Source of the DNA: Lutispora saccharofermentans
GTDB lineage: Bacteria; Bacillota; Clostridia; Lutisporales; Lutisporaceae
Assembly: GCF_024363565.1 (NCBI RefSeq)
Contig: NZ_JAJEKE010000003.1
Location: forward strand, 124,001-188,000
Length of the DNA: 64,000 bases
Direction of reading: 5' to 3'
The notes below the pieces were generated by a model. That model ran no database searches and was not told where the DNA came from. It saw only the letters and a program-made list of their open reading frames with translations. Below, one piece after another: positions 2,255 to 45,792 of this stretch. Each line of letters starts with the position of its first letter. Within the stretch, counting starts at the first letter, position 1. The position numbers and the translations under genes are program-made.

Positions 2255-2407
2255 ATCAATTCTCCTCCCACTCACCAAAATATGATCACATAAATATTCT
2301 AATTCTTTTTATGCATTAAAACAATATTGGTATTAATGTATTTATTCGATAGCAGCATATTTCCTGCTGAAGCTTCATGGCCTTCGGGAGCAGCAAGTGC
2401 TCAAGCT

Positions 2408-2535
2408 TTGAACGAGACTTCATTCAGAGGGGGATTCAACCCCCACTGAATGTTAGTCGAGTCCATACTGGACTTAGCCGCTCTTGGTACCCGCCGCCTA
2501 TAGAGGCGGGGGTCTTAGAGCGGGTTAGTTCAGTG
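2408..2535 (+). repeat. Structured repeat, copy A (full length)
   Basis: This 128-bp sequence recurs at 44160-44288 (full) and 41356-41411 (short form). It begins TTGAACGAGACTTCATTCAG and ends GTTAGTTCAGTG. It can fold into an outer TGAAC/GTTCA stem, a G5/C5 hairpin, a small AGTCC/GGACT hairpin and a CCGCTCT/AGAGCGG stem closing a CCGCCT/AGGCGG hairpin. It abuts the truncated AroM fragment on its right. An open frame runs through it into that fragment, but this looks accidental. Its origin is discussed in the findings; it could be a TnpB-associated or MITE-like relic. Confidence 0.75.
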
Positions 2536-2536
2536 A

Positions 2537-2739
2537 TCGAAGCAGGAGTTGAAGTAATTGATGAGTTATCTATGGCTATTGAGAAATTAAATAAATATAA
2601 TGACATTGACGTTATAATGATGGATTGTATAGGCTATAATCAAGATATGAAAAGCAAAGTATCTATGGGAACCGGAAAGCCGGTTGTTCTTGCTAGAACT
2701 ATGATAGCAAGGGTGCTGGGAGAAATGCTTAATCAATAA
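2537..2739 (+). pseudogene. AroM family gene fragment (3' end of a lost operon copy)
   Basis: This stretch is a close duplicate of the 3' third of the intact AroM gene at 9069-9749. From about 2600 to the stop codon it is nearly identical to 9601-9749, while the left part lacks 30 bp in frame (ten codons, VVKGSPYAEE in the intact gene). The 5' two thirds are gone and are replaced by the structured repeat. There is no start codon or ribosome binding site of its own, so it is a relic rather than a short gene. Confidence 0.85.
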
Positions 2740-2752
2740 TGAGGTGATGATT

Positions 2753-2863
2753 ATGAGCAAAAAATCTGGTTATAGAATTGTGATCGAGAATTGCATGGAT
2801 GTCAAAAAAGATGAAATGGTATTAGTATTGACAGATGATAAGGGGCTTTTATCGGTAACCTAA
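2753..2863 (+). pseudogene. M29-type aminopeptidase fragment (first ~33 codons)
   Basis: The ATG, its GAGGTGATGATT leader and the first ~33 codons match the start of the intact gene at 9763 with a few substitutions. The match breaks off at about 2842, where the sequence continues into a copy of the 3' arm of the terminator that follows the intact operon (11609 onward). The reading frame stops after 36 codons. This shows an internal deletion that removed the rest of the aminopeptidase gene and the following gene from this copy. Confidence 0.85.
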
Positions 2864-2937
2864 TGTGTTAGGTAAGGAACATTTTGAACAAATGATTGAT
2901 AGATAAAGGACTCATAAGCAGGATTATGAAAGAATCT
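2842..2937 (+). repeat. Direct repeat of the operon's downstream tail (matches 11609-11703)
   Basis: The text from GGCTTTTATCGGTAACC to AGGATTATGAAAGAA here matches 11609-11703 at about nine bases in ten. The two copies are in the same orientation and flank an 8.8-kb unit containing all eight genes from the PucR-type regulator to the unknown protein. This is the expected signature of a tandem duplication whose left copy has shrunk. Confidence 0.85.
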
Positions 2938-2968: not shown

Positions 2969-4618
2969 ATGAATGATGATATAAAAAATATAATAGTAGA
3001 TATGAAAAAAGTTAAAACAGATTATGCTCAAGAAAGCTTATCTGTTGAAGAAGTGCTTAATCTTCCAACACTTAATGGCTATAAGTTACTGGCAGGAGGT
3101 ACAGGCCTTCAAAAAAGATGCAAAAATATGACTATACTTGAAACGCCTGAGGGTATTAGCTGGTTACAAGGGGAAGAGTTCTTAATTACCGCGGGATATG
3201 CCTTTACAAATAATGAACATTTTAAAAAAGCAATGCTGATTGATGCGAATTGCAGAGGCGTATCAGCTATTGCAATAAAAGAAAATAGATATTTTGGCGA
3301 GATTAGTCAAGAATTGATTGAGCAAGCTAATAAATTTGAAATACCCCTTATACAAATTCCTTATGATGTTATTTATACTAGCGCAATAGCTAGTTTTTAT
3401 AACATGCTTTTTTATAGAAAAAATGAATATATCCTAAAGCTGAATGATATTTATGAGAAGCTGTTGAATTTATCTTTTGAAAACAAGGATATTGACGGTA
3501 TTATATATTCTTTGTCAAATCTATCTAATTCCAATGTATTTCTATTTGATGGTTCTTTAAATCTAATGTGCTATAATATTATCAATGCCAGCAGTTTTGA
3601 TAGGCTGTCTGCCATTAGCCCATTTAATAAAAGGGGTATTGAGTTAATAAGGCATATTAAGGATTATACGTTAAATGAAGAGCTTTATGGCTCATTTGTC
3701 AGCATGTATCCAATATTAATCAGAAATAAAAATGTTGCGTATGTATATATCATTAATGATTTTAAATTAGACAAGCTTGCACAAAGCTCTATAGAGTATG
3801 GGATTTCTATTATAGCTATGAAACTGGAACTAGATCAGACTACAAGTATTGCTAAAACACGAATAAACAAAACATTGCTTGAGATTATGTTAAATAACAA
3901 TAAGCTTCCTGATGGATTCTACCAAAATGCGGAATTGAATCTAAACTGGAATTACGAAGGTTTTATTTTTGGGTTATGTATCAAACTTTATGTTAAAGAA
4001 GATAATAATATTGAGGATTGCAAGTTCATTATATACAATTGTTTAAATAATATAATTGAGAAAAACAATTATTTATCCACTGACAAAAACACTGAAATCT
4101 TTCTTTTTATTAAGATTAATTCAGGATGCTATTTAGAAGATTTTATTTCTAGCCTGGTAGAGCGCATCAAAATTTATGAAGATATATTTACTTATTCCAT
4201 AGGTGTTTCTAAACCATATAAAGATATTAGAAGCATAAAAAGACTATATGATGAAGCCTATTTAGCAATACTTTTCAGCAATTGCGATATCATTTATTAT
4301 AATACTCTTGATACAATTAAGCTGCTTTATCCTTTGAAGGAGGACAAGAAAATTCAAGAATATTACAACAGAACTATAAAGAAACTTGAGAAGTATGATG
4401 AGGAACACGGAACCAATCTATTGGAAACCATAGAGGTATATTTAAAATACAATCTAAAAAAGACAACTGTTTCCAGAAAACTATATATTCATGTTGAGAC
4501 GTTGAGGTATAGGCTCAACAGAATAGAAGAGATAACAGGTTATTCTTTAGATGACAGTGAAGGTTTATTTGCCTTGCAGCTGGGGATTAAGCTTAAAAGA
4601 TTAATAAAAGTAAATTAA
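2969..4618 (+). CDS. PucR/CdaR family transcriptional regulator
   Basis: A 549-aa regulator. An N-terminal PucR-type sensory domain (about residues 22-145, beginning SVEEVLNLPTLNG and including LQGEEFLITAGY) is followed by a GGDEF-like spacer region and a C-terminal HTH_30 domain (about 485-545, with TTVSRKLYIHVETLRYRLNRIE) that binds DNA. PucR proteins of Bacillus activate purine/ureide catabolism, and relatives control amino acid and peptide use. The start at 2969 follows AGAGGTGAAT; an ATG 4 nt earlier is immediately blocked. It stands at the head of the OPT-DUF917-DUF1177 operon and probably controls it in response to the operon's substrate, which is inference from position. Confidence 0.9.
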   Translation: MNDDIKNIIVDMKKVKTDYAQESLSVEEVLNLPTLNGYKLLAGGTGLQKRCKNMTILETPEGISWLQGEEFLITAGYAFTNNEHFKKAMLIDANCRGVSAIAIKENRYFGEISQELIEQANKFEIPLIQIPYDVIYTSAIASFYNMLFYRKNEYILKLNDIYEKLLNLSFENKDIDGIIYSLSNLSNSNVFLFDGSLNLMCYNIINASSFDRLSAISPFNKRGIELIRHIKDYTLNEELYGSFVSMYPILIRNKNVAYVYIINDFKLDKLAQSSIEYGISIIAMKLELDQTTSIAKTRINKTLLEIMLNNNKLPDGFYQNAELNLNWNYEGFIFGLCIKLYVKEDNNIEDCKFIIYNCLNNIIEKNNYLSTDKNTEIFLFIKINSGCYLEDFISSLVERIKIYEDIFTYSIGVSKPYKDIRSIKRLYDEAYLAILFSNCDIIYYNTLDTIKLLYPLKEDKKIQEYYNRTIKKLEKYDEEHGTNLLETIEVYLKYNLKKTTVSRKLYIHVETLRYRLNRIEEITGYSLDDSEGLFALQLGIKLKRLIKVN

Positions 4619-4672
4619 AAATAAGGTCTATTTATTTATGACTTCTCATAAACAAATAGACCTTATTTTTAT
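4617..4672. terminator. Bidirectional-looking terminator after the PucR-type gene
   Basis: The sequence AAAAATAAGGTCTATTT is followed by its reverse complement AAATAGACCTTATTTTT, giving a long A/T-rimmed stem with a partly paired middle. It begins at the regulator's stop codon, so the downstream operon most likely has its own promoter in 4673-4773. Confidence 0.8.
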
Positions 4673-4773
4673 GTTTTTGTCTGATTGTTAAGTAATGATT
4701 AAATCATTACAATATTCAGTAAATAAGCGGTATCGCTTTTATGCAATACCGCGATTAATAAAGGAGGATTAAC

Positions 4774-6363
4774 ATGTTAGCAAAAGACCTCAAAAAAACA
4801 ACTTATGTAAAGGGTGAAAAGGAAAGAATCAGTGCTTTTGAAGCCCCTACTTTCATCTTGGGAGTTGTATTGTCTGTTTTATCAGCAATAATTTGCATGC
4901 AAATTATTGGCAAGGTTGGGGTTACTCCAAACACCTCTCTTATAGGTGCAATCGTAGCAATGGTAATTGCTAGAATGCCAATTAAATCGTTTTTAAGATT
5001 TAGATCCTTGGAGAGGCAAAACTTGATACAAACTACGGTTTCTGCTGCAGGATTTTCTGCTGCAAACTGTGGCTTTCTTACCCTGGCAATTTTCTTTGTA
5101 ATGGGAGAGACTAATTTTATAGTTCCAATGGCTATTGGTTCATTAATTGGTGTAGTTACCTCAATATTTGTTGTAGGGAAGATATTTGATAGCAGTATAT
5201 TTCCAGCAGAAGGATCATGGCCTCCTGGAGTAGCAACTGCACAAGCTATTGAAGCTGGCGATGAGGGTGGCGAGAAAGGAAAGAGATTATTACAGGGTGT
5301 TATTTTAGGTGCAGTCGCTAGTTATTTTAAATTACCTGCTGCAGGTATTGGTATTGTATTTATTGCTAATATCTTTTCAATGGCAGCTTTGGGTATTGGA
5401 TTACTTATTAGAGGTTATTCTGGAGTTTTCTTTAGTGGTCTTGACTTAGGAAAAACATATATTCCTCATGGCATTATGATTGGTGCAGGTGTTATGGCTC
5501 TTATTCAGTCAATGAAAGTTATTCTAAAAGGTAAGAATAAAGACAAAGGTGCACCAGTAAACTATACACAATCTGATGAAGCAACTAAGAAGAACTTAGT
5601 TATGGGAATAGTTTTGTTCTTAACGGGGGCTTTAGTATTAGCTATTGCTTCGGGTATTACATCTCAACTTGGTGGTGCTAAACTTATACTTTGGTTAATC
5701 TGGGCTACATTTTCAGCTACTGCTGCTATGCTTTTAGTTGGAATGGCAGCAATGCACTCAGGATGGTTTCCTGCTTTTGCAATAACTACTATATTTATGA
5801 CAATTGGTATATTCTTTGGTTTTCCAATTGTTCCACTTGCATTACTAACTGGATATGTAAGCTCCGTTGGACCATGTTTTGCTGATATGGGATATGACCT
5901 TAAAACAGGTTGGATTTTAAGGGGCAAGGGAGAAGACAAAGAATATGAATTATATGGAAGAAAGCAACAAGTTATCATAGAGCTAATTGGTGGTGTTATT
6001 GGAATAATCGTTGTATTACTAACCATGAATCTGTATTTTGAAGCTGATTTAATACCACCGGTAAGTAGGGTATTTGCTACTACTGTTTCAGCTGGTGCGG
6101 ATACCTCACTATTAAAAACATTATTAATATGGGCTGTTCCGGGATTTCTATTACAGCTTGCTTTTGGTCCTTCAAGAATGGTAGGAGTCTTATTTGCTAC
6201 TGGTTTGCTTATAAAGAATCCAATATACGGTATAGGTGTTTTGATCGCAGTAATAGTACGTCTAATCTTTGGTACCAAATTTATGGAAATCAGAGATGCT
6301 GGTTTAATAGCAGGAGATGGCTTGTATGGATTCTTTAGTGCTTTGCTTAAAGCATTAATATAG
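4774..6363 (+). CDS. OPT family oligopeptide/metal-chelate transporter
   Basis: A 529-aa polytopic membrane protein with about 13-14 hydrophobic segments. The opening EAPTFILGVVLSVLSAII, the LERQNLIQTTVSAAGFSAANCGF segment in two parts around residue 75-100, and the EGSWPPGVATAQAIEAGDEGG stretch near 149 are typical of bacterial OPT proteins, which import small peptides or related compounds with protons. An AAAGGAGGATTAAC leader sets the start. It is the first gene of a tightly spaced operon (19 bp to the next) and probably brings in the substrate that the racemase, DUF917, DUF1177 and aminopeptidase proteins process. Confidence 0.9.
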   Translation: MLAKDLKKTTYVKGEKERISAFEAPTFILGVVLSVLSAIICMQIIGKVGVTPNTSLIGAIVAMVIARMPIKSFLRFRSLERQNLIQTTVSAAGFSAANCGFLTLAIFFVMGETNFIVPMAIGSLIGVVTSIFVVGKIFDSSIFPAEGSWPPGVATAQAIEAGDEGGEKGKRLLQGVILGAVASYFKLPAAGIGIVFIANIFSMAALGIGLLIRGYSGVFFSGLDLGKTYIPHGIMIGAGVMALIQSMKVILKGKNKDKGAPVNYTQSDEATKKNLVMGIVLFLTGALVLAIASGITSQLGGAKLILWLIWATFSATAAMLLVGMAAMHSGWFPAFAITTIFMTIGIFFGFPIVPLALLTGYVSSVGPCFADMGYDLKTGWILRGKGEDKEYELYGRKQQVIIELIGGVIGIIVVLLTMNLYFEADLIPPVSRVFATTVSAGADTSLLKTLLIWAVPGFLLQLAFGPSRMVGVLFATGLLIKNPIYGIGVLIAVIVRLIFGTKFMEIRDAGLIAGDGLYGFFSALLKALI

Positions 6364-6382
6364 AATTTCGGGAGATGAGGAA

Positions 6383-7033
6383 ATGAAAGATAGTTATAAT
6401 ATTGGGCTTATTAGAGTAGTCACATTCCCACAGGGAGATTTGCTAAACCTTCATGGCAAAATAATAGAAAGATATTATCCTATGCTTAAAGTAACTTCAA
6501 GATGTATACCGGATCAACCTTATGGAATACACGACGAAGAGACTGAATTACTTGCAGTTCCTAAAATAATTGAGCTTGCAAAGGGATGGAAGGATATTGA
6601 TGCTCTAGTAATTAGCTGCGCTGGAGATCCTGCTGTTAAGGAACTGAGACAAATATTAGATATACCGGTAATAGGTGCAGGTGAGAGCACTGCCCTGTTA
6701 GCTCTGCGATATGGACAGGTATTTGGTGTTTTAGGCATTACTAAAGAGATTCCAAATGCTTATACTAGAATCTTGGGCAACAATATAGTCGGGACTTGTG
6801 ATGTACCAGGTATTGTATCAACCATAGACTTAATGGCTAAAACAGGAAAAGAAAAGGTAATTAATAAGGCACTTGAACTTAAGTCCATGGGTGCTGAGGT
6901 AATTTCGCTTGCATGCACCGGAATGGCAACCATAGGTGTTGCTAAAGACATTGAAGATGCCTGTGGCATTCCTGTTATTGACCCTGTTATTGCTGAAGGT
7001 TTAATCACTTATTATGAATGTATAAAAAAGTAA
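6383..7033 (+). CDS. Asp/Glu/hydantoin racemase superfamily protein
   Basis: A 216-aa protein of the cofactor-independent racemase fold, which uses two cysteines to move a proton at the alpha carbon of amino acids or 5-substituted hydantoins. The first catalytic cysteine should be in ALVISCAGDPAV (about residue 80) and the second in VISLACTGMATIG (about residue 180). Their spacing and the VIGAGESTALLAL segment fit hydantoin-racemase-like members better than glutamate racemase MurI. It sits 17 bp upstream of the DUF917 gene, and in other bacteria the two families also occur near hydantoin-degrading genes, so a hydantoin or amino acid substrate is plausible but unproven. Confidence 0.85.
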   Translation: MKDSYNIGLIRVVTFPQGDLLNLHGKIIERYYPMLKVTSRCIPDQPYGIHDEETELLAVPKIIELAKGWKDIDALVISCAGDPAVKELRQILDIPVIGAGESTALLALRYGQVFGVLGITKEIPNAYTRILGNNIVGTCDVPGIVSTIDLMAKTGKEKVINKALELKSMGAEVISLACTGMATIGVAKDIEDACGIPVIDPVIAEGLITYYECIKK

Positions 7034-7050
7034 AAGAATGAGGTGATGGG

Positions 7051-8112
7051 ATGAAACTTAATAAGGAGATGCTAAAGTATGCCCTAGTAGGTGGCACCAT
7101 TCTTGGTGGAGGCGGAGGTGGTTCTAAGGAACTAGGGGAGGCTTCTGGGAGTATTGCATTAGATTATGGAGATTTAAACCTAACTGATATTTCTGAAGTT
7201 CCAGATGACACTTTGATCGTTACTACTTCAGCCGTAGGTGCACCTGCTGCAGTTGATAAGTATGTAAAACCTAGAGACTATGTGAGAACCATGGAGGTCT
7301 TACAGGAAAATACTGGTTTTAAAATTGGGGGCATTATCACTAACGAAAACGGAGGAGCAGCAACAATTAATGGATGGATACAAGCAGCTATACTAAATAT
7401 TCCACTAATAGATGCTCCGTGTAATGGAAGAGCACATCCTACTGGAACAATGGGTAGCATGGGACTTAATAATGTTTCAGGATTTATATCCTATCAGGCA
7501 TATGCTGGTGGAAACCCTAATTTAGGAAATAGGGTAGAAGGCTTTATTAGTGGGGATATATTCAAAGCTTCCACAATGGTTAGACAAGCTGCTGTTCAGG
7601 CTGGCGGATTAGTTGCTGTTGCTAGAAATATAGTAGATGCCAAGTATGTTAAAGAAAACGGAGCCATAAAAGGTATTAGCCATGCTATTGAAACAGGCAA
7701 AAGGTTTTATAAAGGATTGGAGACCTCTCCACGTGATGCTATAGAAGCTGTTGCAGAGTTTTTAAATGGAGAAATAGTTGCTGAGGGGGTAGTTTATGGA
7801 TTTGAGCTTGTTACAAAGGGTGGATTTGATGTTGGTAAAATTAACATAGATGGTATCGAGATGACATTTTGGAATGAGTATATGACACTAGAACATGGAA
7901 ATAAGAGATTATATACTTTCCCAGATCTTATTATGTCATTTGATAAGGCTTCCGGAATGCCTATTACTACTGCAGAAATTAAAAAAGGCATGAACATTGC
8001 AATTATAGGAACAAAGAAAGAAAATATAAAGCTTGGTGCTGGTATGCATGATTTAAACTTGCTTAAGGAAATAGAACCTATAGTTGATAAAGAAGTTATA
8101 AAATATCTTTAA
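7051..8112 (+). CDS. DUF917 (S-methyl-thiohydantoin desulfurase-like) family protein
   Basis: A 353-aa protein with the family's glycine-rich N-terminus (GGTILGGGGGGSKELG, about residues 14-29) and the central segments NGRAHPTGTMGSMG and GGLVAVARN. DUF917 members include an enzyme that removes sulfur from a thiohydantoin intermediate of ergothioneine breakdown; most members have no known reaction. Length is normal for the family and all domains seem intact. Start follows GAGGTGATGGG. The gene lies between the racemase-like and DUF1177 genes with 17 and 13 bp gaps, which argues for one pathway, possibly ring opening or modification of a hydantoin-like compound. Confidence 0.85.
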   Translation: MKLNKEMLKYALVGGTILGGGGGGSKELGEASGSIALDYGDLNLTDISEVPDDTLIVTTSAVGAPAAVDKYVKPRDYVRTMEVLQENTGFKIGGIITNENGGAATINGWIQAAILNIPLIDAPCNGRAHPTGTMGSMGLNNVSGFISYQAYAGGNPNLGNRVEGFISGDIFKASTMVRQAAVQAGGLVAVARNIVDAKYVKENGAIKGISHAIETGKRFYKGLETSPRDAIEAVAEFLNGEIVAEGVVYGFELVTKGGFDVGKINIDGIEMTFWNEYMTLEHGNKRLYTFPDLIMSFDKASGMPITTAEIKKGMNIAIIGTKKENIKLGAGMHDLNLLKEIEPIVDKEVIKYL

Positions 8113-8125
8113 TTGGAGGAATATT

Positions 8126-9067
8126 ATGTTATTAAAACAAATTTTAGATGTATATGAATATATTGATACTGCAACAGCTAATGGGCAAATGATGAAAAAG
8201 TATATGGAATCACTTGGTGCAAAAGATGTTGAGGTCAAGATTATCAATGGAGATAAAGGAAAGACTGATTTTATTAGAATTAGAATTCCCGGACTAAAGG
8301 GTAAGTCTAAGGGAATGGATGCTCCCACTCTTGGAGTGCTTGGCAGATTGGGAGGAATTGGAGCAAGACCCGAAATGATCGGAATGGTATCAGATGCCGA
8401 TGGTGCTGTGGTTGCTTTGGCTGTTGCAGCGAAGCTGCTTGATATGCAAAACAAGGGTGATTTCCTCGATGGAGATGTAATAATATCTACGCATATTTGT
8501 CCTGATGCTCCGACTCAACCACATAAACCAGTGCCTTTTATGGGTTCTCCTGTTGATATGGCTACAGTTAACAGGGAAGAAGTGAATGGAGAACTGGATG
8601 CCATATTATCAATCGATACAACTAAGGGCAACAATGTTATTAATCACAGAGGATTTGCCATTTCTCCTACTGTAAAGGAAGGATATATATTAAAAACAAG
8701 CAATGACTTGCTAGATATCATGCAAACTACAACGGGAAAATTACCAGTTGTATTCCCAATTACTACTCAAGATATTACTCCTTATGGTAATGATGTTTAT
8801 CATATAAACAGTATCCTACAGCCATCTACTGCAACTACTGCACCTGTTGTAGGAATTGCAATAACTGCTGAGGTTGCTGTACCGGGTTGTGCTACAGGTG
8901 CAAGTCATCCATTTGATTTGGAGCAAGCTGCCAGATTTACAGTTGAGGTTGCTAAGGCATATGGAAGAGGTAACTGTAACTTTTTTGACGAGGCGGAGTT
9001 TGCGAAATTAACTAAACTGTATGGCAGTATGCATCATATTCAAACCCTGGGAAAAGCGGAGGTATAA
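8126..9067 (+). CDS. DUF1177 family protein
   Basis: A 313-aa protein recognised as DUF1177 by its overall pattern (VLGRLGGIGARPEMIGMVSD, DGDVIISTHICPDAPTQPHKP, ITTQDITPYGNDVYHI). The family has no established reaction. Conserved histidines and aspartates in the THICPDAPTQPH segment could bind metal, which is my inference. It has no signal peptide and is probably cytosolic. The stop codon is one base before the AroM start, so the two are almost certainly co-translated. Start ATG follows TTGGAGGAATATT. Confidence 0.8.
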   Translation: MLLKQILDVYEYIDTATANGQMMKKYMESLGAKDVEVKIINGDKGKTDFIRIRIPGLKGKSKGMDAPTLGVLGRLGGIGARPEMIGMVSDADGAVVALAVAAKLLDMQNKGDFLDGDVIISTHICPDAPTQPHKPVPFMGSPVDMATVNREEVNGELDAILSIDTTKGNNVINHRGFAISPTVKEGYILKTSNDLLDIMQTTTGKLPVVFPITTQDITPYGNDVYHINSILQPSTATTAPVVGIAITAEVAVPGCATGASHPFDLEQAARFTVEVAKAYGRGNCNFFDEAEFAKLTKLYGSMHHIQTLGKAEV

Positions 9068-9068
9068 T

Positions 9069-9749
9069 ATGAAAAAAAAATTAGGTGCTATTACTATTGG
9101 TCAATCACCAAGAATCGATGTTATACCAGAGATGCTGCCATACTTGGGGGAAGATGTTGAGGTAATTCAGGCTGGAGCTTTGGATGGTCTGACATATGAG
9201 GAAATACTGCAATTTGAACCTGAAGAGAATGATTATGTATTGGTATCAAAGTTAAGAGATGGAAGAAGCGTAAGATTTGCTGAAAGATATATATTGCCAA
9301 GGCTGCAAAATTGTATTAATAAGCTAGAGGCTGAGGGCGCAGATGTGATTTTGTTTATTTGTACCGGTGTATTCCCTGATATATTTAAATCTTCAAAGCC
9401 TGTTTTGTACCCGCAGAAAATACTGCATGGAGTTGTTCCCAGACTGGTTGATAAGGGAAAGCTGGCAGTGATTACTCCTGATCAAGATCAGATAATTCAG
9501 AGCCAAAAGAAATGGAGTGAAGCTGGAGTTGAAGTAATTGTGGTAAAAGGTTCGCCCTATGCTGAGGAAGATGAGTTATCTGTAGCTATTGAGGAATTAA
9601 ATAAATATAATAGTATTGACATTATAGTGATGGATTGTATAGGCTATAATCAAGATATGAAAAGCAAAGTATCTATGGGAACCGGAAAGCCGGTTGTTCT
9701 TGCTAGAACTATGATAGCAAGGGTGCTGGGAGAAATGCTTAATCAATAA
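9069..9749 (+). CDS. AroM family protein
   Basis: A 226-aa AroM-like protein: the N-terminus GAITIGQSPRIDVIPEM and the internal FICTGVFPD segment are family hallmarks. The name comes from the aroLM region of E. coli, but no activity is known; the fold is related to Asp/Glu racemases, and a cysteine (ICTG) is kept. GCGGAGGTATAAT precedes the ATG at 9069; an upstream in-frame start would overlap DUF1177 and lacks a binding site. The 3' third is duplicated as a relic at 2537-2739. Pairing with DUF917 and a hydantoin-type racemase suggests that AroM acts on a related small molecule. Confidence 0.85.
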   Translation: MKKKLGAITIGQSPRIDVIPEMLPYLGEDVEVIQAGALDGLTYEEILQFEPEENDYVLVSKLRDGRSVRFAERYILPRLQNCINKLEAEGADVILFICTGVFPDIFKSSKPVLYPQKILHGVVPRLVDKGKLAVITPDQDQIIQSQKKWSEAGVEVIVVKGSPYAEEDELSVAIEELNKYNSIDIIVMDCIGYNQDMKSKVSMGTGKPVVLARTMIARVLGEMLNQ

Positions 9750-9762
9750 TGAGGTGATGATT

Positions 9763-10704
9763 ATGAGCAAAAAATCTGGTTATAGAATTGTGATCGAGGA
9801 TTGCATGGATGTCAAAAAAGATGAAACAGTATTAATATTGACAGATGATAAGAAGCTTGCAATTGGCAGTGCATTGTATGAGGAAGCAAAAGGATTTGCC
9901 AAAGAAGCCGTACTAATGGTAATGAAGCCTAGAAATGTCAGCGGTGAAGAGCCGCCAGAGGTTGTTGCTGAGGCCATGAGAAAGTTTGATGTGATCATAT
10001 GCCCAACTTCTACGTCAATTACACATACAAATGCAAAAATCAATGCAGTTAAAGCAGGAGCTAGATTGGCAAGTATGCCTGGAATAACAAACGAGATGTT
10101 TGAAGCAGGTGCGATTACTGCTGATTATAATGAGGTAGAAGCACTTACAATAAAGTTTACTGAACTTCTATCTAAAGCAAAAACGGCTAAGATTATAAAA
10201 GAAGGTCACATTCTTCAAATGTCATTAGAAAATAGAAAAGGAGTTCCTAGTACAGGAATATATAAAAACCCTGGTGAAGCAGGAAATCTTCCTTCCGGAG
10301 AAGCATATATAGCACCTGTTGAAGATTCTGCAAATGGCAGTATGATAATTGACGGCAGTATGGTGGGAGTTGGGAAGCTGAGTTCTCCGTTACACATAAA
10401 GGTCAAGGATGGGAAACTTGTGGAACTTGAAGGTGAAGATGCCCATAAGCTTCAAATACTCTTTGATAATGATAATAATGCTACCATAGGTGAGCTGGGA
10501 ATTGGTACAAATTCTGCAGCTAGGCTTACAGGGGTAATACTGGAAGATGAAAAAATATATGGAACTGTCCATATAGCTTTTGGCACTAATATATCCTTTG
10601 GCGGAATCAACAAAGCGAATTGCCACCTTGATGGGATTATAATCAATCCAACCTTATATTTAGATGATCAACTTGTGTTAGATAAAGGAAAGGTATTAAT
10701 ATAA
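9763..10704 (+). CDS. M29-type aminopeptidase (AmpS/aminopeptidase T-like)
   Basis: A 313-aa protein resembling the C-terminal catalytic part of the M29 metallo-aminopeptidases. The segment around residues 175-300 carries GEAYIAPVEDSANG, IGELGIGTNSAA, GTVHIAFGTN and ANCHLDGI, matching the metal-ligand region. It is shorter than classical M29 enzymes (about 400 aa), as in several small clostridial relatives. The ATG at 9763 follows GAGGTGATGATT; an alternative GTG at 9754 overlaps that site. It is 13 bp after AroM. In this operon it may open an amide bond of an imported peptide-like compound. Confidence 0.82.
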   Translation: MSKKSGYRIVIEDCMDVKKDETVLILTDDKKLAIGSALYEEAKGFAKEAVLMVMKPRNVSGEEPPEVVAEAMRKFDVIICPTSTSITHTNAKINAVKAGARLASMPGITNEMFEAGAITADYNEVEALTIKFTELLSKAKTAKIIKEGHILQMSLENRKGVPSTGIYKNPGEAGNLPSGEAYIAPVEDSANGSMIIDGSMVGVGKLSSPLHIKVKDGKLVELEGEDAHKLQILFDNDNNATIGELGIGTNSAARLTGVILEDEKIYGTVHIAFGTNISFGGINKANCHLDGIIINPTLYLDDQLVLDKGKVLI

Positions 10705-10719
10705 TTCAGGAGTGGTTTA

Positions 10720-11565
10720 ATGAAGAAGATACAAATTACACTAACTGTAGAAGAAGGCAAAGAAATAATTGCTTTAGGCATGTTAAACCATCCGGTATTA
10801 ATTAATACAATGAAAAACGGGAAGATGCTATTTAAAGGTGGAACTACTGTCTCTAAAATTACTGAAAAGTTGTTAGGAGTGCCGCTAAGGATAAGCGGCA
10901 GGATAACTTCACGAGGGACAGTGTCTACTAAGGATATAATTAAAGGGCCTCACTCCATCATTTATTATAAAGGACAGTGGACTAATATAGATGAAACAAT
11001 AGTAGGTGAGGTTTTAAAGTTTACTGATAAAGACCTTATAATATGTGGGGCAAATGCATTTGATAATAATGGGAATGCAGCAATCATGGCTGGCAGCCCA
11101 GGCGGAGGGGCTGTTGGACAATCTTTGAGTTCTTGGTATACAGAAGGTGCAAAAGTAATAATCCCTGTAGGCATAGAAAAAATAATTCCAGGCGATTTAA
11201 ACGAGATCATAAAAAGAACCGGCAGAAATGGGAAATCTCTATCTTGGGGGATGTCAGTAGGTTTGATGCCATTAAAAGGAGAATTATTTACTGAAATAGA
11301 AGCTATCAAAATATTAGCGAATGTTGATTGTTTTCCAATAGGTGCTGGTGGGCTAGGGGAGGCACACGGAAGTTCTACGCTGGAAATCTTAGCTCCAACA
11401 AATGAGGAATATGAAAAGATAGTTAAAATATTAAAGGAAGTTAAATCAAGGGATATAGAAGTCGGAGGTATAAAAGATTCTCTTGTAGAATGTGAAGCAA
11501 TATGCAATAACTGCATCAGACATATAGGATGTGGATACAAGTCTAAGAAATTGCAGCTAATGTGA
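10720..11565 (+). CDS. Conserved operon protein of unknown function, C-terminal Cys cluster
   Basis: A 281-aa protein that I do not recognise with confidence. It contains glycine-rich stretches (AGSPGGGAVGQSL, about residue 124; PIGAGGLGEAHGSS, about 207) and ends with a cysteine-rich segment, CEAICNNCIRHIGC (about 258-271), which could hold a metal or Fe-S cluster. No signal peptide or membrane segment is visible. It is the last gene of the operon, 15 bp after the aminopeptidase, with an AGGAGTGGTTTA leader, and is followed directly by a strong terminator. Intact frame and tight spacing say it belongs to the same pathway; its reaction cannot be read from the sequence. Confidence 0.75.
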   Translation: MKKIQITLTVEEGKEIIALGMLNHPVLINTMKNGKMLFKGGTTVSKITEKLLGVPLRISGRITSRGTVSTKDIIKGPHSIIYYKGQWTNIDETIVGEVLKFTDKDLIICGANAFDNNGNAAIMAGSPGGGAVGQSLSSWYTEGAKVIIPVGIEKIIPGDLNEIIKRTGRNGKSLSWGMSVGLMPLKGELFTEIEAIKILANVDCFPIGAGGLGEAHGSSTLEILAPTNEEYEKIVKILKEVKSRDIEVGGIKDSLVECEAICNNCIRHIGCGYKSKKLQLM

Positions 11566-11584
11566 ATAATTCCATGAGTTAGTG

Positions 11585-11618
11585 AAAAGCTCCTTTCTGG
11601 CAACAGAAAGGAGCTTTT
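11585..11618 (+). terminator. Rho-independent terminator of the OPT-DUF917 operon
   Basis: A perfect 15-bp stem (AAAAGCTCCTTTCTG with its complement) around the tetraloop GCAA ends in TTTT. It starts 20 bp after the last operon gene. The right arm is also present at the left relic (about 2842-2852), marking where the internal deletion of the lost copy ended. Confidence 0.9.
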
Positions 11619-11663
11619 ATTGGTAACCTAATGTGTTAGATAAGGAACATTTTGAACAAATGA

Positions 11664-11855
11664 GTGATAGATAAAGGACTCATAAGCAGGGTTATGAAAG
11701 AAGATCCTAAAGATTTGACGGATAACTTCGTTGAAATATATGGAGGTTATTTTGCCGCTGAGGCAATCATGGGTTCAGAGGATCTTGAGGCACAATTAAT
11801 GCTTCGTAAATTCAAAAGTAAAGCATATGAACATATGAAAATGAGAAGGAGGTAA
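11664..11855 (+). CDS. Small ORF or gene remnant of unknown function
   Basis: A 63-codon frame beginning GTG and ending with a basic tail (YEHMKMRRR). It has no convincing ribosome binding site and I do not recognise it. Its first 13 codons lie inside the tail that is repeated at 2842-2937, where the frame ends after a few further codons. It stops 2 bp before the start of the broken zinc-finger gene, whose ribosome binding site overlaps its end, so it may be the 3' remnant of a gene that was once co-transcribed with it. Confidence 0.3.
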   Translation: MIDKGLISRVMKEDPKDLTDNFVEIYGGYFAAEAIMGSEDLEAQLMLRKFKSKAYEHMKMRRR

Positions 11856-39908: not shown

Positions 39909-41207
39909 CTATGCATTAACCTTGTGATTATCATTCTTCATTACTGCATTCATAACCGGAACCATAAGAGCTGCCGCAATAATGCCCTGGAGAGGAGGAA
40001 TGCCTATACCGAACTTGTTGGTCAAATAAGCAACAAGTGTTCCGATGAGGTAAGCAGCAAGGTTAGCCACTCGAACGGACTTGAACTCGACCTTATTTAT
40101 ATTTGGAATATTTCCCTTCCAAACGAAAAGGTAATCGCCTATGATGGTACCGCCGAGCGGAGGAATAAATATTCCAAGCGCAACCAAAAAGGGTATGAAG
40201 AAGTTGTATACTCCTGTTACTGCAAGGACTGTTGCTATGGCAACACCCCCTATTATAAAAGGCTTCTTGTCGCTCTTGTTGAAAAATTCTGATCCTGCCA
40301 CACCAAAGGCATATGCTGCTGCATCGTTGGTAGTCCAGATATTGATTGTCAATATTACTAAAGCAAAGAAAACGATGCCCATCTGCATAAATACTTCTAC
40401 TATATCAGGAAGCTGGAAAGCTATAGCACCGATACCGCCGGCAAATATCATAAGGCCGTTGCCGAAGAAAAAGGCCAGCAATGCTGCTATGAAGCTGACT
40501 TTTGCACTCTTCGCAAATCTGGACCAGTTAGCTACCTGTGTACCGGCTGATGCAAAGGTGCCCACTATGATTGTAAGGGCTGTGGTCATAGCCATTGGCT
40601 CTCCTGAGGGTGCTATTGCAGCTAGGGCTGCCCAGGAACCTGCTTTTTGAATACCGAGGATGGGTGTCCATATAGTAAGTATGAGTATGAGAGGTATTGC
40701 AATATAGGATACTATTTCCATAGCTTTAAACCCGTATACTGCAGTTATGCCCATGACTATACACCAGAACAATGTCCAAAATATAAAGGAATTAGGCATA
40801 TTGAGAGCTTTAACAAATATCTCTGCAACATATGCGGCAGAAACAGCGTACCAGCCCAGCTGGGTTCCTCCCAATAAAAAGCTGGCCCATTTAGAACCTG
40901 CTGTTCCAAGGGTATAACGAGAGAGAAGAACCGAAGTCAAACCTGATTTTGTACCGATAACAGACATAATTGCTACATAGAGACCAAGAATCAGATTCCC
41001 TATAACCATAGCCTGCAAGAATTTGTTCAGACCGAATGAGGCAGCTACTTGCCCGCCTGCAACCATTGTAGGGCTAAAGAAGGTTAGTCCTAACAAAACG
41101 GCTGAGAGAGGAAGAAGGCCGACTCTAGCGCTTTGAGGCACGTGGTCTAATGGATAATCCTTGTCGATGTTTTGATCCTGGTTTTGGTTTTTGTTTTGTC
41201 CCATCAT
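39909..41207 (-). CDS. NCS1 family nucleobase:cation symporter (CodB-like), copy 1
   Basis: A 432-aa transporter with 12 predicted membrane segments, of the cytosine permease branch of NCS1. A hydrophilic Gln/Asn-rich N-terminus leads to DYPLDHVPQSARVGLLPLSA, and the substrate-site segments TFFSPTMVAGGQVAASFG (about 42), GGTQLGWYAVSAAYVAEIF (about 113) and TINIWTTNDAAAYAFG (about 280) are conserved. It imports cytosine, or a similar nucleobase or hydantoin, with Na+ or H+. It is about 85% identical by eye to copy 2 downstream at 41660-42970, a tandem duplication. GGAGG lies 4 or 7 nt before two adjacent ATG codons. A palindrome shared with copy 2 and the deaminase gene sits just in front. Confidence 0.92.
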   Translation of the reverse strand: MMGQNKNQNQDQNIDKDYPLDHVPQSARVGLLPLSAVLLGLTFFSPTMVAGGQVAASFGLNKFLQAMVIGNLILGLYVAIMSVIGTKSGLTSVLLSRYTLGTAGSKWASFLLGGTQLGWYAVSAAYVAEIFVKALNMPNSFIFWTLFWCIVMGITAVYGFKAMEIVSYIAIPLILILTIWTPILGIQKAGSWAALAAIAPSGEPMAMTTALTIIVGTFASAGTQVANWSRFAKSAKVSFIAALLAFFFGNGLMIFAGGIGAIAFQLPDIVEVFMQMGIVFFALVILTINIWTTNDAAAYAFGVAGSEFFNKSDKKPFIIGGVAIATVLAVTGVYNFFIPFLVALGIFIPPLGGTIIGDYLFVWKGNIPNINKVEFKSVRVANLAAYLIGTLVAYLTNKFGIGIPPLQGIIAAALMVPVMNAVMKNDNHKVNA

Positions 41208-41220
41208 TAAACCTCCTAAA

Positions 41221-41235
41221 TTTCGTCATATGAAA
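41221..41235. promoter_or_regulatory. Shared nucleobase-regulon palindrome, site 1
   Basis: TTTCGTCATATGAAA has the TTTC-N7-GAAA form found also at 42984-42998 and 44413-44427. It lies 14 bp from the permease start, next to the ribosome binding site, where a bound repressor would stop transcription. Confidence 0.6.
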
Positions 41236-41355
41236 CTATGATTTATTAATATGAAATTGATATATATATTCTATATTTTTTTAAAATATCCTTTTTTCCA
41301 ACATAAATTTTTATCATTTTTTTAACCCATAAAAAATATAAATTTGCCTTGCAAT

Positions 41356-41411
41356 TTGAACGAGACTTCATTCAGAGGGGGATTCAACCCCCACTGAATG
41401 TTAGTTCAGTG
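41356..41411 (+). repeat. Structured repeat, copy B (short form)
   Basis: Identical in its first 48 bp to copy A (2408), then missing 72 bp between two GTTAGT words, one in the middle and one at the end of the full form. Loss by recombination between these 6-bp direct repeats explains the short form. It keeps the outer TGAAC/GTTCA pair and the first hairpin. It lies between the two tandem permease genes. Confidence 0.75.
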
Positions 41412-41480
41412 ATAAACTTTCAAGTTTCTGGGAAGGCTTCTAATGGAAGCCGCATTTGCCGATACAGCAGCTATAAGTAG

Positions 41481-41518
41481 AATGGTATGCATATCTGTAC
41501 ACGGATATGCATACCATT
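41481..41518. repeat. Perfect 15-bp inverted repeat (hairpin 1)
   Basis: AATGGTATGCATATC and its exact complement GATATGCATACCATT are separated by 8 nt. There is no T-run, so it is not a standard terminator. A second hairpin of the same size follows 21 bp later. Confidence 0.75.
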
Positions 41519-41539
41519 TATATATTCCGCTATAGTAAA

Positions 41540-41584
41540 ATAGCATCCATGTATATACTATACGTGACTATACATGGATGCTAT
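41540..41584. repeat. Perfect 16-bp inverted repeat (hairpin 2)
   Basis: ATAGCATCCATGTATA and TATACATGGATGCTAT around a 13-nt loop. Together with hairpin 1 and the terminator at 41618 it gives three hairpins in 170 bp between the tandem permease genes. Origin unknown; ends of a small mobile sequence are possible. Confidence 0.75.
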
Positions 41585-41617
41585 TGCTTATGAAGCCTCG
41601 ATCAACGAGCAATAAAA

Positions 41618-41647
41618 AAGCAATGGCAGTTTGATTTGCCATTGCTT
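41618..41647 (-). terminator. Terminator of NCS1 permease copy 2
   Basis: AAGCAATGGCA/TGCCATTGCTT stem with an 8-nt loop; on the minus strand it ends in a run of six T. It lies 12 bp behind the permease stop codon. Confidence 0.85.
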
Positions 41648-41659
41648 ATCGAAACTTGA

Positions 41660-42970
41660 TTATGCTTGAATCGTGCTATTACCCTTAACCTTGTGGTTGT
41701 CATTCTTTATTACTGCATTCATAACAGGGACCATAAGTGCTGCTACAATGATGCCCTGGAGAGGAGGAACGCCTATGCCGAATTTGTTTCCTAAATAAGC
41801 GGCGAGAGTTCCTAATAAATAAGCAACTATGTTGGAAATTCTGACACTTTTAAACTCCACATCTTTCATGTTCGGTATATTCCTCTTCCATGTGAAGATA
41901 TAATCGCCTATGATGGTACCGCCAAGTGGAGGGATGAATATTCCGAGTGCGACCAAAAAGGGTATAAGGAAGTTATATGCTCCTGTTATTGCAAGGACTG
42001 TTGCTATGGCAACACCCCCTATTATAAAAGGCTTCTTGTCGCTCTTGTTGAAAAATTCTGAGCCTGCCACACCGAAGGCGTATGCCGCCGCATCGTTGGT
42101 AGTCCAGATATTGATCGTCAATATTATCATGGCAAAGAAAACGATACCCATCTGCATGAATACTTCAACCATGTCGGGCTGCTGAAAAGCTATCGCTCCC
42201 ATGCCGCCGGCAAATACCATAAGGCCGTTGCCGAAGAAGAAGGCCAGCAAAGCTGCTATGAAGCTGACTTTTGCATTCTTGGCAAATCTGGACCAGTTGG
42301 TGACCTGTGTACCTGCCGATGCAAAAGTGCCCACTATGATTGTAAGAGCTGTGGTCATAGCCATTGGCTCTCCTGAAGGTGCTATTGCAGCTAAAGCTGC
42401 CCAAGAACCTGCTTTTTGGACACCTAATACCGGTACCCAAACGGTAAGTATCAGTATCAGCGGTATAGCTATATAAGATACTATCTCCATAGCTTTGAAG
42501 CCGTATACAGCGGTAATTCCCATTACTACGCACCAGAATATGGCCCAGAATATATATGAGTTGGGCATGTTGAGAGCCTTTACAAAAATTTCTGCAACAT
42601 ATGCGGCAGAAACGGCGTACCAGCCCAGCTGCGTGCCGCCCAGCAAGAAGCTGGCCCATTTGGAACCGCCAGTTCCAAGAGTATAACGAGATAATAGAAC
42701 TGAAGTCAAACCTGTTTTAGTACCGATAACAGACATAATTGCAACATAGAGACCAAGGACCAAGTTTCCCAGAATCATGGCAGTCATGAATTTGTTCAGA
42801 CCGAATGAGGCAGCTACTTGCCCGCCTGCAACCATTGTAGGGCTGAAGAAGGTTAGTCCTAACAAAACGGCTGAGAGAGAAAGAAGGCCGACTCTAGCGC
42901 TTTGAGGCACATGATCTAATGGATAATCCTTATCATGGTTTTGATTCTGATTTTTGTTTTCACCCATCAT
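41660..42970 (-). CDS. NCS1 family nucleobase:cation symporter (CodB-like), copy 2
   Basis: A 436-aa paralogue of the transporter at 39909-41207, with the same 12-segment plan and the same substrate-site words (VAGGQVAASFGLNKF, GTQLGWYAVSAAYVAEIFVK, INIWTTNDAAAYAFGVAGSE). Differences cluster in the N-terminal tail, a few membrane residues and the C-terminal HKVKGNSTIQA. Both genes have their own promoter region with a conserved TATAGAATATA word and the TTTC-N7-GAAA palindrome, so they were duplicated together with their control region. Two copies may differ in affinity or substrate. The Met at 42970 follows GAGGAGGTTTA. Confidence 0.92.
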   Translation of the reverse strand: MMGENKNQNQNHDKDYPLDHVPQSARVGLLSLSAVLLGLTFFSPTMVAGGQVAASFGLNKFMTAMILGNLVLGLYVAIMSVIGTKTGLTSVLLSRYTLGTGGSKWASFLLGGTQLGWYAVSAAYVAEIFVKALNMPNSYIFWAIFWCVVMGITAVYGFKAMEIVSYIAIPLILILTVWVPVLGVQKAGSWAALAAIAPSGEPMAMTTALTIIVGTFASAGTQVTNWSRFAKNAKVSFIAALLAFFFGNGLMVFAGGMGAIAFQQPDMVEVFMQMGIVFFAMIILTINIWTTNDAAAYAFGVAGSEFFNKSDKKPFIIGGVAIATVLAITGAYNFLIPFLVALGIFIPPLGGTIIGDYIFTWKRNIPNMKDVEFKSVRISNIVAYLLGTLAAYLGNKFGIGVPPLQGIIVAALMVPVMNAVIKNDNHKVKGNSTIQA

Positions 42971-42983
42971 TAAACCTCCTCGT

Positions 42984-42998
42984 TTTCATAATATGAAA
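42984..42998. promoter_or_regulatory. Shared nucleobase-regulon palindrome, site 2
   Basis: TTTCATAATATGAAA, the most symmetrical of the three sites, 14 bp from the start of permease copy 2. Confidence 0.65.
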
Positions 42999-43343
42999 GT
43001 ATATTTGTGGGATATGAAATTAATTTATATATTCTATATTTTCGTAAAATTTCCTCTTTTTTTGTGAAAAATTTTTATAATATTTTACTGCATATATTGA
43101 TTAACTTTTATTGAATATTTATGATAGTATAGTAATGATGTAATTCTTTTCAGTCTGTGAAATGGTAATTCGTGACTAAGAATTCAACCGCTCAGATAGA
43201 TCGGTACGCATGGTGCAGATAAGCTTGTTGTGACCGCTTATGCTGATTTGCATTGCAGAGGGCTATGCAGTTTTAGCAATAGAAATGTGCCGGCACAACG
43301 AATGAAGTTTCGTTTAATATTGTTGATGAGAGGAGAAAAATCG

Positions 43344-44105
43344 ATGACAAACAAAGCTGGCAACGGAGGCAGCGGGTTGATAAAATCTGTGCAAAAAAGC
43401 TTGAAGATACTTAAATATATAATAGATGCAGATGATGAGGTAAATCTTTCAGACATAGAAAAAGCATTGGGCTATAATGTAAGCACCGTTCATCATTTGT
43501 TGAAGACTTTGATGGAAGAAGGCTTTGTAAGCCAAAATAAGATCACCAGAAAATACGATATCGGTCCGGAGATATTTTTTGCATGGCTGGGAGGAAGAAA
43601 ACCGGAAAATTATTTCTCCAGGGTGACTCCTATACTTGAGGAGTGTGTGCAGGAAACGGGGGAAACGACGAATCTGTTTATCAGAGATGATAATGAAGCA
43701 GTATGCATAACGGGTTGTGAATCCAAATATACTCTCAGGGCATTTCTTAAGATAGGAAGAAGGATTCCTCTTACCAGCACTGCTGCAGGTAAAGCTTTTT
43801 TAGTAAATTTGAGGCCCGAAGATCTTAAAAAATATCTTCCTAATACCTCAAAGGACCTGGAGAGGCTTTCAAAGGAACTGGAAGACTCAAGGGTAAGAGG
43901 CTATACTTTGGAGATTGAGGAATTTGAAGATATGATCACTGCTATAGGAGTCCCTGTAATTGATCATAACGGAAGAGTCATATGTGCCTTGTCTACAATT
44001 GCACCCAGTGTGAGAATAGATAAAGAAAAAATTGATCTCATATCAAAAGCATTGATCAATGCTTCTAATAGAATTACGGAAATAATGGAAGGAGTATTCT
44101 ATTAG
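43344..44105 (+). CDS. IclR family transcriptional regulator
   Basis: A 253-aa regulator of normal IclR length. The N-terminal winged helix (about residues 10-75) reads IKSVQKSLKILKYIIDADDE, VNLSDIEKALGYNVSTVHHL and a wing; the effector domain (about 85-250) includes RIPLTSTAAGKAFL and ending ASNRITEIM. The ATG at 43344 follows GAGAGGAGAAAAATCG; an upstream in-frame start has none. It lies between the permeases and the deaminase/xanthine dehydrogenase genes, and is the best candidate for binding the palindrome shared by those three promoters. A terminator follows at 44291. Confidence 0.9.
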   Translation: MTNKAGNGGSGLIKSVQKSLKILKYIIDADDEVNLSDIEKALGYNVSTVHHLLKTLMEEGFVSQNKITRKYDIGPEIFFAWLGGRKPENYFSRVTPILEECVQETGETTNLFIRDDNEAVCITGCESKYTLRAFLKIGRRIPLTSTAAGKAFLVNLRPEDLKKYLPNTSKDLERLSKELEDSRVRGYTLEIEEFEDMITAIGVPVIDHNGRVICALSTIAPSVRIDKEKIDLISKALINASNRITEIMEGVFY

Positions 44106-44158
44106 GGCTCAGGATTCAGAACTCAGAACTCAGGAATGCTAGGGTATTCCTAAGCGAT
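44104..44158. repeat. Period-7 repeat with GGTATTCCT core (inverted form)
   Basis: Reading the minus strand: AGGAATACCCTAGCATTCC followed by 7-nt units TGAGTTC, TGAGTTC, TGAATCC, TGAGCCC. It has the same order as the blocks at 19005-19052 and 36460-36504. It abuts copy C of the structured repeat. Confidence 0.65.
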
Positions 44159-44159
44159 A

Positions 44160-44288
44160 TTGAACGAGACTTCATTCAGTGGGGGATTCAACCCCCACTG
44201 AATGTTAGTCGAGTCCATACTGGACTTAGCCGCCCTTTGGCACCCGCCGCCTATAGAGGCGGGGGACTTAGGGCGGGTTAGTTCAGTG
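44160..44288 (+). repeat. Structured repeat, copy C (full length)
   Basis: A 129-bp copy of the element at 2408-2535. Hairpin 1 is a perfect 13-bp stem here (CATTCAGTGGGGG). The inner stem reads CCGCCCT/AGGGCGG instead of CCGCTCT/AGAGCGG in copy A, a compensatory change (44234 with 44272, against 2482 with 2519) that keeps the pair. It lies between the IclR stop codon and that gene's terminator. Confidence 0.8.
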
Positions 44289-44290
44289 TT

Positions 44291-44328
44291 AAAAATCCCT
44301 TATTGGTTTTGCCGATAAGGGATTTTTT
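44291..44328 (+). terminator. Terminator of the IclR gene
   Basis: AAAATCCCTTAT and ATAAGGGATTTT pair with a small internal bulge around GGTTTTGCC, ending in TTTTTT. Confidence 0.85.
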
Positions 44329-44411
44329 AATAAAATATTTATAGATTAAAGCAGGATTTTTTTTAATCGGTATAGAATATAAAAAATAATATTTCGCGAT
44401 GTAATATATAA

Positions 44412-44428
44412 ATTTCATATAATGAAAT
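44412..44428. promoter_or_regulatory. Shared nucleobase-regulon palindrome, site 3
   Basis: ATTTCATATAATGAAAT, a 17-bp near-perfect palindrome immediately before GGAGG of the deaminase gene. A TATAGAATATA word about 45 bp upstream also recurs in front of both permeases. Confidence 0.65.
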
Positions 44429-44441
44429 GGAGGTTAAAAAA

Positions 44442-45677: not shown

Positions 45678-45705
45678 AAAGAATGCGATAAATGAAAGTA
45701 ATGGA

Positions 45706-45738
45706 ACGGAAAACACGGATTTAATCAGTGTTTTCCGT
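45706..45738. repeat. Hairpin between deaminase and xanthine dehydrogenase genes
   Basis: ACGGAAAACAC pairs with GTGTTTTCCGT around 11 nt. It uses the CACGGA words of the period-10 repeats. There is no T-run, so it may attenuate or protect mRNA rather than terminate it; the genes on both sides could still form one transcript. Confidence 0.5.
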
Positions 45739-45792
45739 CCCCATATTTTATTTGAAGCGATGTGCTTTTGTACAAATTTTGGAGGTGAAGAA

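Follow-up and report, generated by a model that had tools for sequence, protein, structure and literature searches.

A recurrent DUF1177-AroM gene set in Lutispora saccharofermentans with a possible role in the catabolism of recalcitrant dipeptides

Organization of the locus

The 64,000-nt stretch of Lutispora saccharofermentans DNA analyzed here, referred to below as the window (NZ_JAJEKE010000003.1, positions 124,001 to 188,000; own genome, G000), contains eight adjacent genes on the plus strand, ordered PucR, OPT, racemase, DUF917, DUF1177, AroM, M29-like, and an unnamed protein with a cysteine cluster. The open reading frame (ORF) list of the window and the Pfam assignments agree with an earlier sequence-only reading, which had described eight genes of these families with six gaps of 1 to 19 bp and had noticed the cysteine cluster. 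The first gene (2969..4618) encodes a PucR-family transcriptional regulator of 549 residues (PF07905, 81 bits; HTH_30, PF13556, 70 bits) and forms its own unit, with a strong hairpin or terminator at its 3′ side (4612..4682, plus strand; minimum free energy −26.2, z −8.3) and a spacing of 155 bp before the OPT gene.

The remaining seven genes form an operon at 4774-11565, with successive intergenic gaps of 19, 17, 13, 1, 4 or 13, and 15 bp. It starts with an OPT-family (oligopeptide-type) transporter of 529 residues (4774..6363), which is a divergent family member by its PF03169 score (67 bits; Pfam cut-off, 25.8). The following genes encode an Asp/Glu/hydantoin-racemase superfamily protein (6383..7033; PF01177, 97 bits against a cut-off of 31), a DUF917 or S-Me-THD-like protein (7051..8112; PF20906 and PF06032), and a DUF1177 protein (8126..9067; PF06675, 467 bits against a Pfam cut-off of 25). 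An AroM-family protein comes next, with a likely start at 9069 (9069..9749; PF07302, 262 bits against 23.8; NF007788, 227 against 198), then a 313-residue M29/NicX-like metallohydrolase (9763..10704, with an alternative GTG start at 9754), in which PF02073 matches the C-terminal part only (45 bits). The last gene (10720..11565) encodes an unnamed 281-residue protein without a Pfam or NCBIfam match that carries a C-terminal C-x6-C-x2-H-x2-C cluster, and a second strong hairpin or terminator lies 3′ of it (11572..11632, plus strand; minimum free energy −25.8, z −5.7).

Recurrence of the gene set

Recurrence was assessed in a phylum sample of 398 genomes, in a wider collection with one genome per species, and in a survey of 119 loci with a callable DUF1177 gene, in which partners were counted within the same-strand run. 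Gene calling followed a simple longest-ORF rule, which makes the counts slight underestimates; because the 80 named loci are those most closely related to the query, the fractions reflect the window's relatives more than the whole family. DUF1177 was found in 46 of the 398 phylum genomes and at least 574 places in the one-genome-per-species collection, and its carriers among the matches listed include Clostridia, Bacilli, Streptomyces, Serratia, Spirochaetes, Synergistales, Thermococcus, and Bathyarchaeota. Strong AroM matches occurred in 41 phylum genomes, 36 of which also carry DUF1177, compared to 4.7 expected (hypergeometric p 1.3e-36, a value that overstates independence because of species kinship). 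In the same sample, the long form of the cysteine-cluster protein stood alongside DUF1177 in 15 of 17 cases (p 1e-13).

Within the same-strand runs of the 119 loci, DUF1177 was accompanied by AroM in 71, DUF917 in 46, an M29-like protein in 44, a racemase in 42, OPT in 39, PucR in 36, an M20 peptidase in 31, a Dpp substrate-binding protein in 20, and the cysteine-cluster protein in 13. The per-gene density in the run exceeded that elsewhere in these loci about 50-fold for AroM, 9-fold for OPT, and 8-fold for the racemase. The complete combination of OPT, racemase, DUF917, DUF1177, AroM, and M29 was present in 27 loci, including one of Thermococcus (L113), with adjacency and order kept from Clostridia to Thermococcus. 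Since the set recurs in other genomes, the eight adjacent genes are neither a local arrangement nor a product of chance but a real set found in many bacteria and some archaea. The gene-neighborhood survey that the sequence-only reading had suggested as a check thus returned the conserved co-occurrence that it was meant to look for. That these genes form only a loose assortment sharing a peptide-rich niche, rather than one pathway, is highly improbable: partners do vary, and only the 27 loci hold all five partners of DUF1177, but the DUF1177-AroM association (p 1e-36), the conserved adjacency and order, and the gaps of 1 to 19 bp argue against it.

Copies of the core were also seen on plasmids. 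A conjugative Klebsiella pneumoniae plasmid carries an IclR-OPT-DUF1177-AroM-PepE-racemase cluster flanked by transposase genes (L071, 7559-12966), from which it follows that the module can be mobile. This enterobacterial set, also found on a Sodalis plasmid and in Serratia, shares the core of the window operon with PepE in the M29 slot; it differs in its IclR regulator and in having neither DUF917 nor the cysteine-cluster protein, and it is likewise uncharacterized as a set. On a 44.7-kb Paenibacillus plasmid (L074, 2021-20933), possibly a phage-plasmid with a catabolic module, a Dpp-M20-DUF1177-AroM cluster occurs together with phage tail genes.

Transporter exchange and variety of the hydrolases

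The transporter associated with DUF1177 is not constant. The OPT form was present in 38 loci, a Dpp/Opp-type ABC form in 19, and both in a single locus with two DUF1177 genes (L108). DUF917 accompanies OPT in 34 loci and never the ABC form alone, and an M20 peptidase accompanies the ABC form in 17. The DUF1177 tree contains at least six transporter switches on well-supported branches, and close relatives of the window protein (77-82% identical) employ Dpp. Two unrelated peptide-type importers, repeatedly swapped before the same enzymes, point to a peptide-like cargo.

The hydrolase slot also varies and can be occupied by M29-like, ArgE/DapE, PepV, PepE, or M24 proteins. ArgE/DapE-like enzymes were found in 17 loci, PepV-like enzymes in 7 (541 bits in L120, against a cut-off of 435), and PepE in 3 (327 bits against a cut-off of 156), while an alanine racemase and an M55 D-aminopeptidase adjoin DUF1177 in one locus (L103, 10001-13110). 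A carbamoylase was present in 1 of the 119 loci and HyuA/HyuB in 2. Taken together, the transporter swaps, the variety of peptidases, and the rarity of carbamoylase and HyuA/HyuB genes favor peptides over hydantoins as substrates.

These counts bear directly on the sequence-only reading, which had envisaged import and stepwise breakdown of a hydantoin- or thiohydantoin-like or modified-peptide compound with racemization. In such a hydantoin-type pathway, a 5-substituted hydantoin or thiohydantoin would be imported and racemized, its ring would be opened by DUF917, and the carbamoyl group would be removed. The DUF917 protein does belong to the same superfamily as thiohydantoin and S-methyl thiohydantoin desulfurases and matches them over its full length, the racemase has the hydantoin racemase 2eq5 as its closest solved structure (236 bits), and in L046 an N-carbamoyl/allantoate amidohydrolase (521 bits) follows the cluster, which is itself set among genes resembling purine/pyrimidine catabolism. 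However, the DUF917 scores of 275 bits against NF058529 and 272 bits against NF058532 miss the equivalog cut-offs of 440 and 450 by a wide margin, the window operon lacks the ring-opening and carbamoylase partners and HyuA/HyuB, and the peptide ABC transporters and dipeptidases would be left unexplained. We therefore rejected hydantoin or thiohydantoin catabolism as a general reading and regard it as quite unlikely; the import and stepwise breakdown with racemization is retained, in keeping with the conserved set, without the emphasis on hydantoins. A structural relative of the DUF917 protein, 2o3i, is itself unannotated, and the protein is presumed to be a cyclic-amide hydrolase.

Features of the individual proteins

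The racemase belongs to the PF01177 superfamily by its Pfam score and by its two catalytic cysteines, C79 and C178, which are invariant in 47 of 47 sequences, and racemase activity is predicted. The AroM protein has a comparable pair, C98 and C190, invariant in 75 of 75 sequences; together with the fold given in PMC11055893, this suggests that it is a second racemase-like protein. That there are two racemase-fold proteins, each with a cysteine pair that is fully conserved, implies a stereochemical correction.

The AlphaFold2 model of DUF1177 (pLDDT 84, pTM 0.89) aligned with 5ds0 over 228 residues at 3.2 Å (VIA-align Z 17.6; best Foldseek E 7e-9). DUF1177 is therefore predicted to adopt a metallopeptidase fold of the M42/M28/M17/M20 type with an altered site, the likeness to the M42 (TET), M28, M17, and M20 enzymes reaching Z 17 over about 230 residues. 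Its invariant residues are R74, D90, D92, H123, C125, H133, D164, and H226, and, judged by the order of secondary-structure elements in the model, D90/D92 and D164 would occupy the places of two metal-binding aspartates of M42.

In the M29-like protein, the ligands E180, E244, H270, H288, and D290 align with those of 2ayi and 7cn3 and are conserved in at least 93% of 46 sequences. The protein thus has the Glu, Glu, His, His-x-Asp set of M29 enzymes and may function as a peptidase. It keeps the ligand residues of AmpS, AmpT, PepS, and NicX but differs from the M29 aminopeptidases in its length of 313 residues and its divergent N-terminal part.

The cysteine cluster of the last protein is real and conserved, with C258 and C271 present in 15 of 15 sequences, C265 in 14 of 15, and H268 in at least 93%. 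Residues 8-214 of this protein, modeled from a 7-sequence alignment, resemble RpiA/eIF2B/CoA-transferase-like structures (VIA-align Z 10.1, 4-5 Å; Foldseek E 5.6e-3), which provides moderate evidence for such a fold in the model. A LUD domain, guessed from motif likeness, received no support from Pfam, and sequence searches of the PDB with AroM, DUF1177, and the cysteine-cluster protein gave no match. Including shorter paralogues, the family occurs in 108 of the 398 genomes, and the long form is also found in DUF917/racemase clusters without DUF1177; the protein was consequently discarded as a hallmark of the operon and is better seen as an optional auxiliary. One such sister arrangement (L171-L177) comprises PucR, racemases, DUF917, the long cysteine-cluster protein, and M29. 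The shorter paralogues (about 250-270 residues, with C-terminal cysteines; L161-L170) account for most matches and represent a widespread unnamed family.

Link to cyclodipeptide oxidases

In three loci (L046, L092, and L101), a cyclodipeptide oxidase (nitroreductase plus PF19585) lies directly downstream of the DUF1177 set in one run. In 11 other genomes, the oxidase loci mostly contain Dpp, DUF917, M29/M20, racemase, or PucR genes without DUF1177. A 2024 survey (PMC11055893) reports that genes for PF01177, DUF917, AroM, OPT, dipeptide ABC transporters, and peptidases surround cyclodipeptide oxidases and states that every oxidase characterized to date acts on cyclic dipeptides. The oxidase clusters without a CDPS described there are enriched in the same PF01177, DUF917, AroM, OPT or dipeptide ABC, and peptidase genes as the window operon; they differ in that the window genome has no oxidase, and neither DUF1177 nor the cysteine-cluster protein is mentioned in the available text.

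One suggestion made for these CDPS-free clusters is that they build or tailor a secondary metabolite derived from a peptide (PMC11055893). We give this alternative very little credence for the DUF1177 set, since no synthetase, CDPS, or ligase was recognized in the runs, peptide-type importers and PucR or IclR regulators are the rule, and the module spans many lineages, archaea included.

Proposed function

From these observations we infer a substrate class, an order of steps, and a reaction for each step. With moderate confidence, we propose that the operon directs the PucR-controlled catabolism of small recalcitrant dipeptides, left intact by ordinary peptidases, that are either cyclic (2,5-diketopiperazines) or carry D- or altered residues. 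The compound would first be imported by the OPT transporter, or by Dpp/Opp ABC transporters in related clusters. The PF01177 and AroM proteins, as putative cofactor-independent two-cysteine racemase-fold proteins, may then correct one or two alpha-carbons, after which DUF917 and/or DUF1177 could hydrolyze an amide bond and thus open the ring. Finally, the amino acids would be freed by the M29-like metallo-enzyme, whose place is taken elsewhere by ArgE/DapE, PepV, PepE, or M24. The cysteine-cluster protein would act as an optional auxiliary.

A special case that overlaps with this proposal is that only peptides with D-residues, for example from peptidoglycan, are degraded: the racemases would convert D-Glu, D-Asp, or D-Ala and the dipeptidases would cut, with no cyclic compound involved. 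The two racemase-fold proteins agree with this, as do the PepV (7 loci) and ArgE/DapE (17 loci) enzymes and the L103 locus, in which an alanine racemase and an M55 D-aminopeptidase adjoin DUF1177. However, the labelled neighbors included no gene of the LD-carboxypeptidase, AE-epimerase-like, or NlpC/P60 type, and the scheme gives no role to DUF917 and leaves the cyclodipeptide oxidase link unexplained. We consider a restriction to D-residue peptides rather unlikely.

Several observations weigh against the broader proposal of catabolism of cyclic or altered dipeptides. In 23 of the 119 loci, about one fifth, none of the labelled partners was present, indicating that DUF1177 also works in other settings. 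Despite the likeness in predicted fold, profile-profile comparison of DUF1177 with the M42 proteins of the same genome revealed no sequence similarity, and its invariant residues are different: following the order of elements in the model, R74 would replace the first His and H123-x-C125 the Glu-Glu pair. Without a recognizable first His, Glu-Glu, or M42 similarity, DUF1177 may not hydrolyze peptides. By sequence, the M29-like protein lies closer to the dioxygenase NicX than to M29 aminopeptidases, its best profile match being the NicX structure 7cn3 (1e-22, compared to 2e-11 for PepS). Lastly, a PF19585 profile search of the window's own genome found none, although the same search detects oxidase-bearing genomes, and co-occurrence of the oxidase with DUF1177 at the genome level is not significant (3 of 10, p 0.10). 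The oxidase was accordingly rejected as a required partner, and the link to cyclic dipeptides is best described as a shared toolkit rather than a dependency. In one further setting, DUF1177 was seen beside an amidohydrolase and other genes resembling histidine degradation (L085, 9932-16754).

Food, heated protein, and microbial cultures commonly contain cyclic dipeptides, some of which serve as signals. No dedicated, widespread pathway for their breakdown was found in the literature searched, and of the searches on DUF1177, AroM, and diketopiperazine catabolism only PMC11055893 proved relevant. The statement of the sequence-only reading that no single known pathway uses this set is borne out, as these searches found no account of such a pathway. 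Its description of the system as undescribed holds insofar as no pathway has been characterized, but the PF01177, DUF917, AroM, OPT, dipeptide ABC transporter, and peptidase families had already been reported around cyclodipeptide oxidases, DUF1177 not being named in the available text of PMC11055893. Several proteins of the set have never been characterized; the conserved module gives DUF1177, AroM, the cysteine-cluster protein, and this DUF917 group, which have no assigned reactions, one substrate class in common that can be tested, and its carriers include gut and thermophilic lineages as well as plasmids. More tentatively, it is conceivable that DUF1177 represents a new class of amidohydrolase, built on a zinc-peptidase fold and acting on diketopiperazines or D-peptides, and that DUF1177-AroM with OPT or Dpp constitutes a catabolic module for such compounds that has not been described before and is widespread in bacteria and archaea, gut Blautia included.

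Flanking elements

Upstream of the PucR gene, blastn comparisons within the window identified a decayed remnant of a second operon copy on the plus strand (2322..2934), made up of pieces of OPT, AroM/M29, and the 3′ flank. Positions 2322-2412 match the OPT region at 5162-5253 (78%), 2560-2848 the AroM/M29 junction at 9570-9858 (95%), and 2840-2934 the 3′ flank of the operon at 11608-11702 (95%), and an AroM Pfam match covers 2377-2739. The order of the pieces follows that of the operon, which suggests that the region once underwent a tandem duplication or a rearrangement. The remnant also contains a repeat of about 130 bp (2407-2535), with a second copy at 44160-44288 (95%) and a 51-bp exact piece at 41355-41405; it folds as a G+C-rich hairpin without an Rfam match, and an Rfam scan of the whole window likewise gave no match. 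The region just upstream (1-2278) encodes a TldD/PmbA-like protein in truncated form and an M18 aminopeptidase, the latter on the minus strand. Farther downstream, 39909-48105 holds a purine/pyrimidine module with two similar tandem cytosine permeases, an IclR regulator, a cytosine-deaminase-like amidohydrolase, and a xanthine-dehydrogenase-like subunit.

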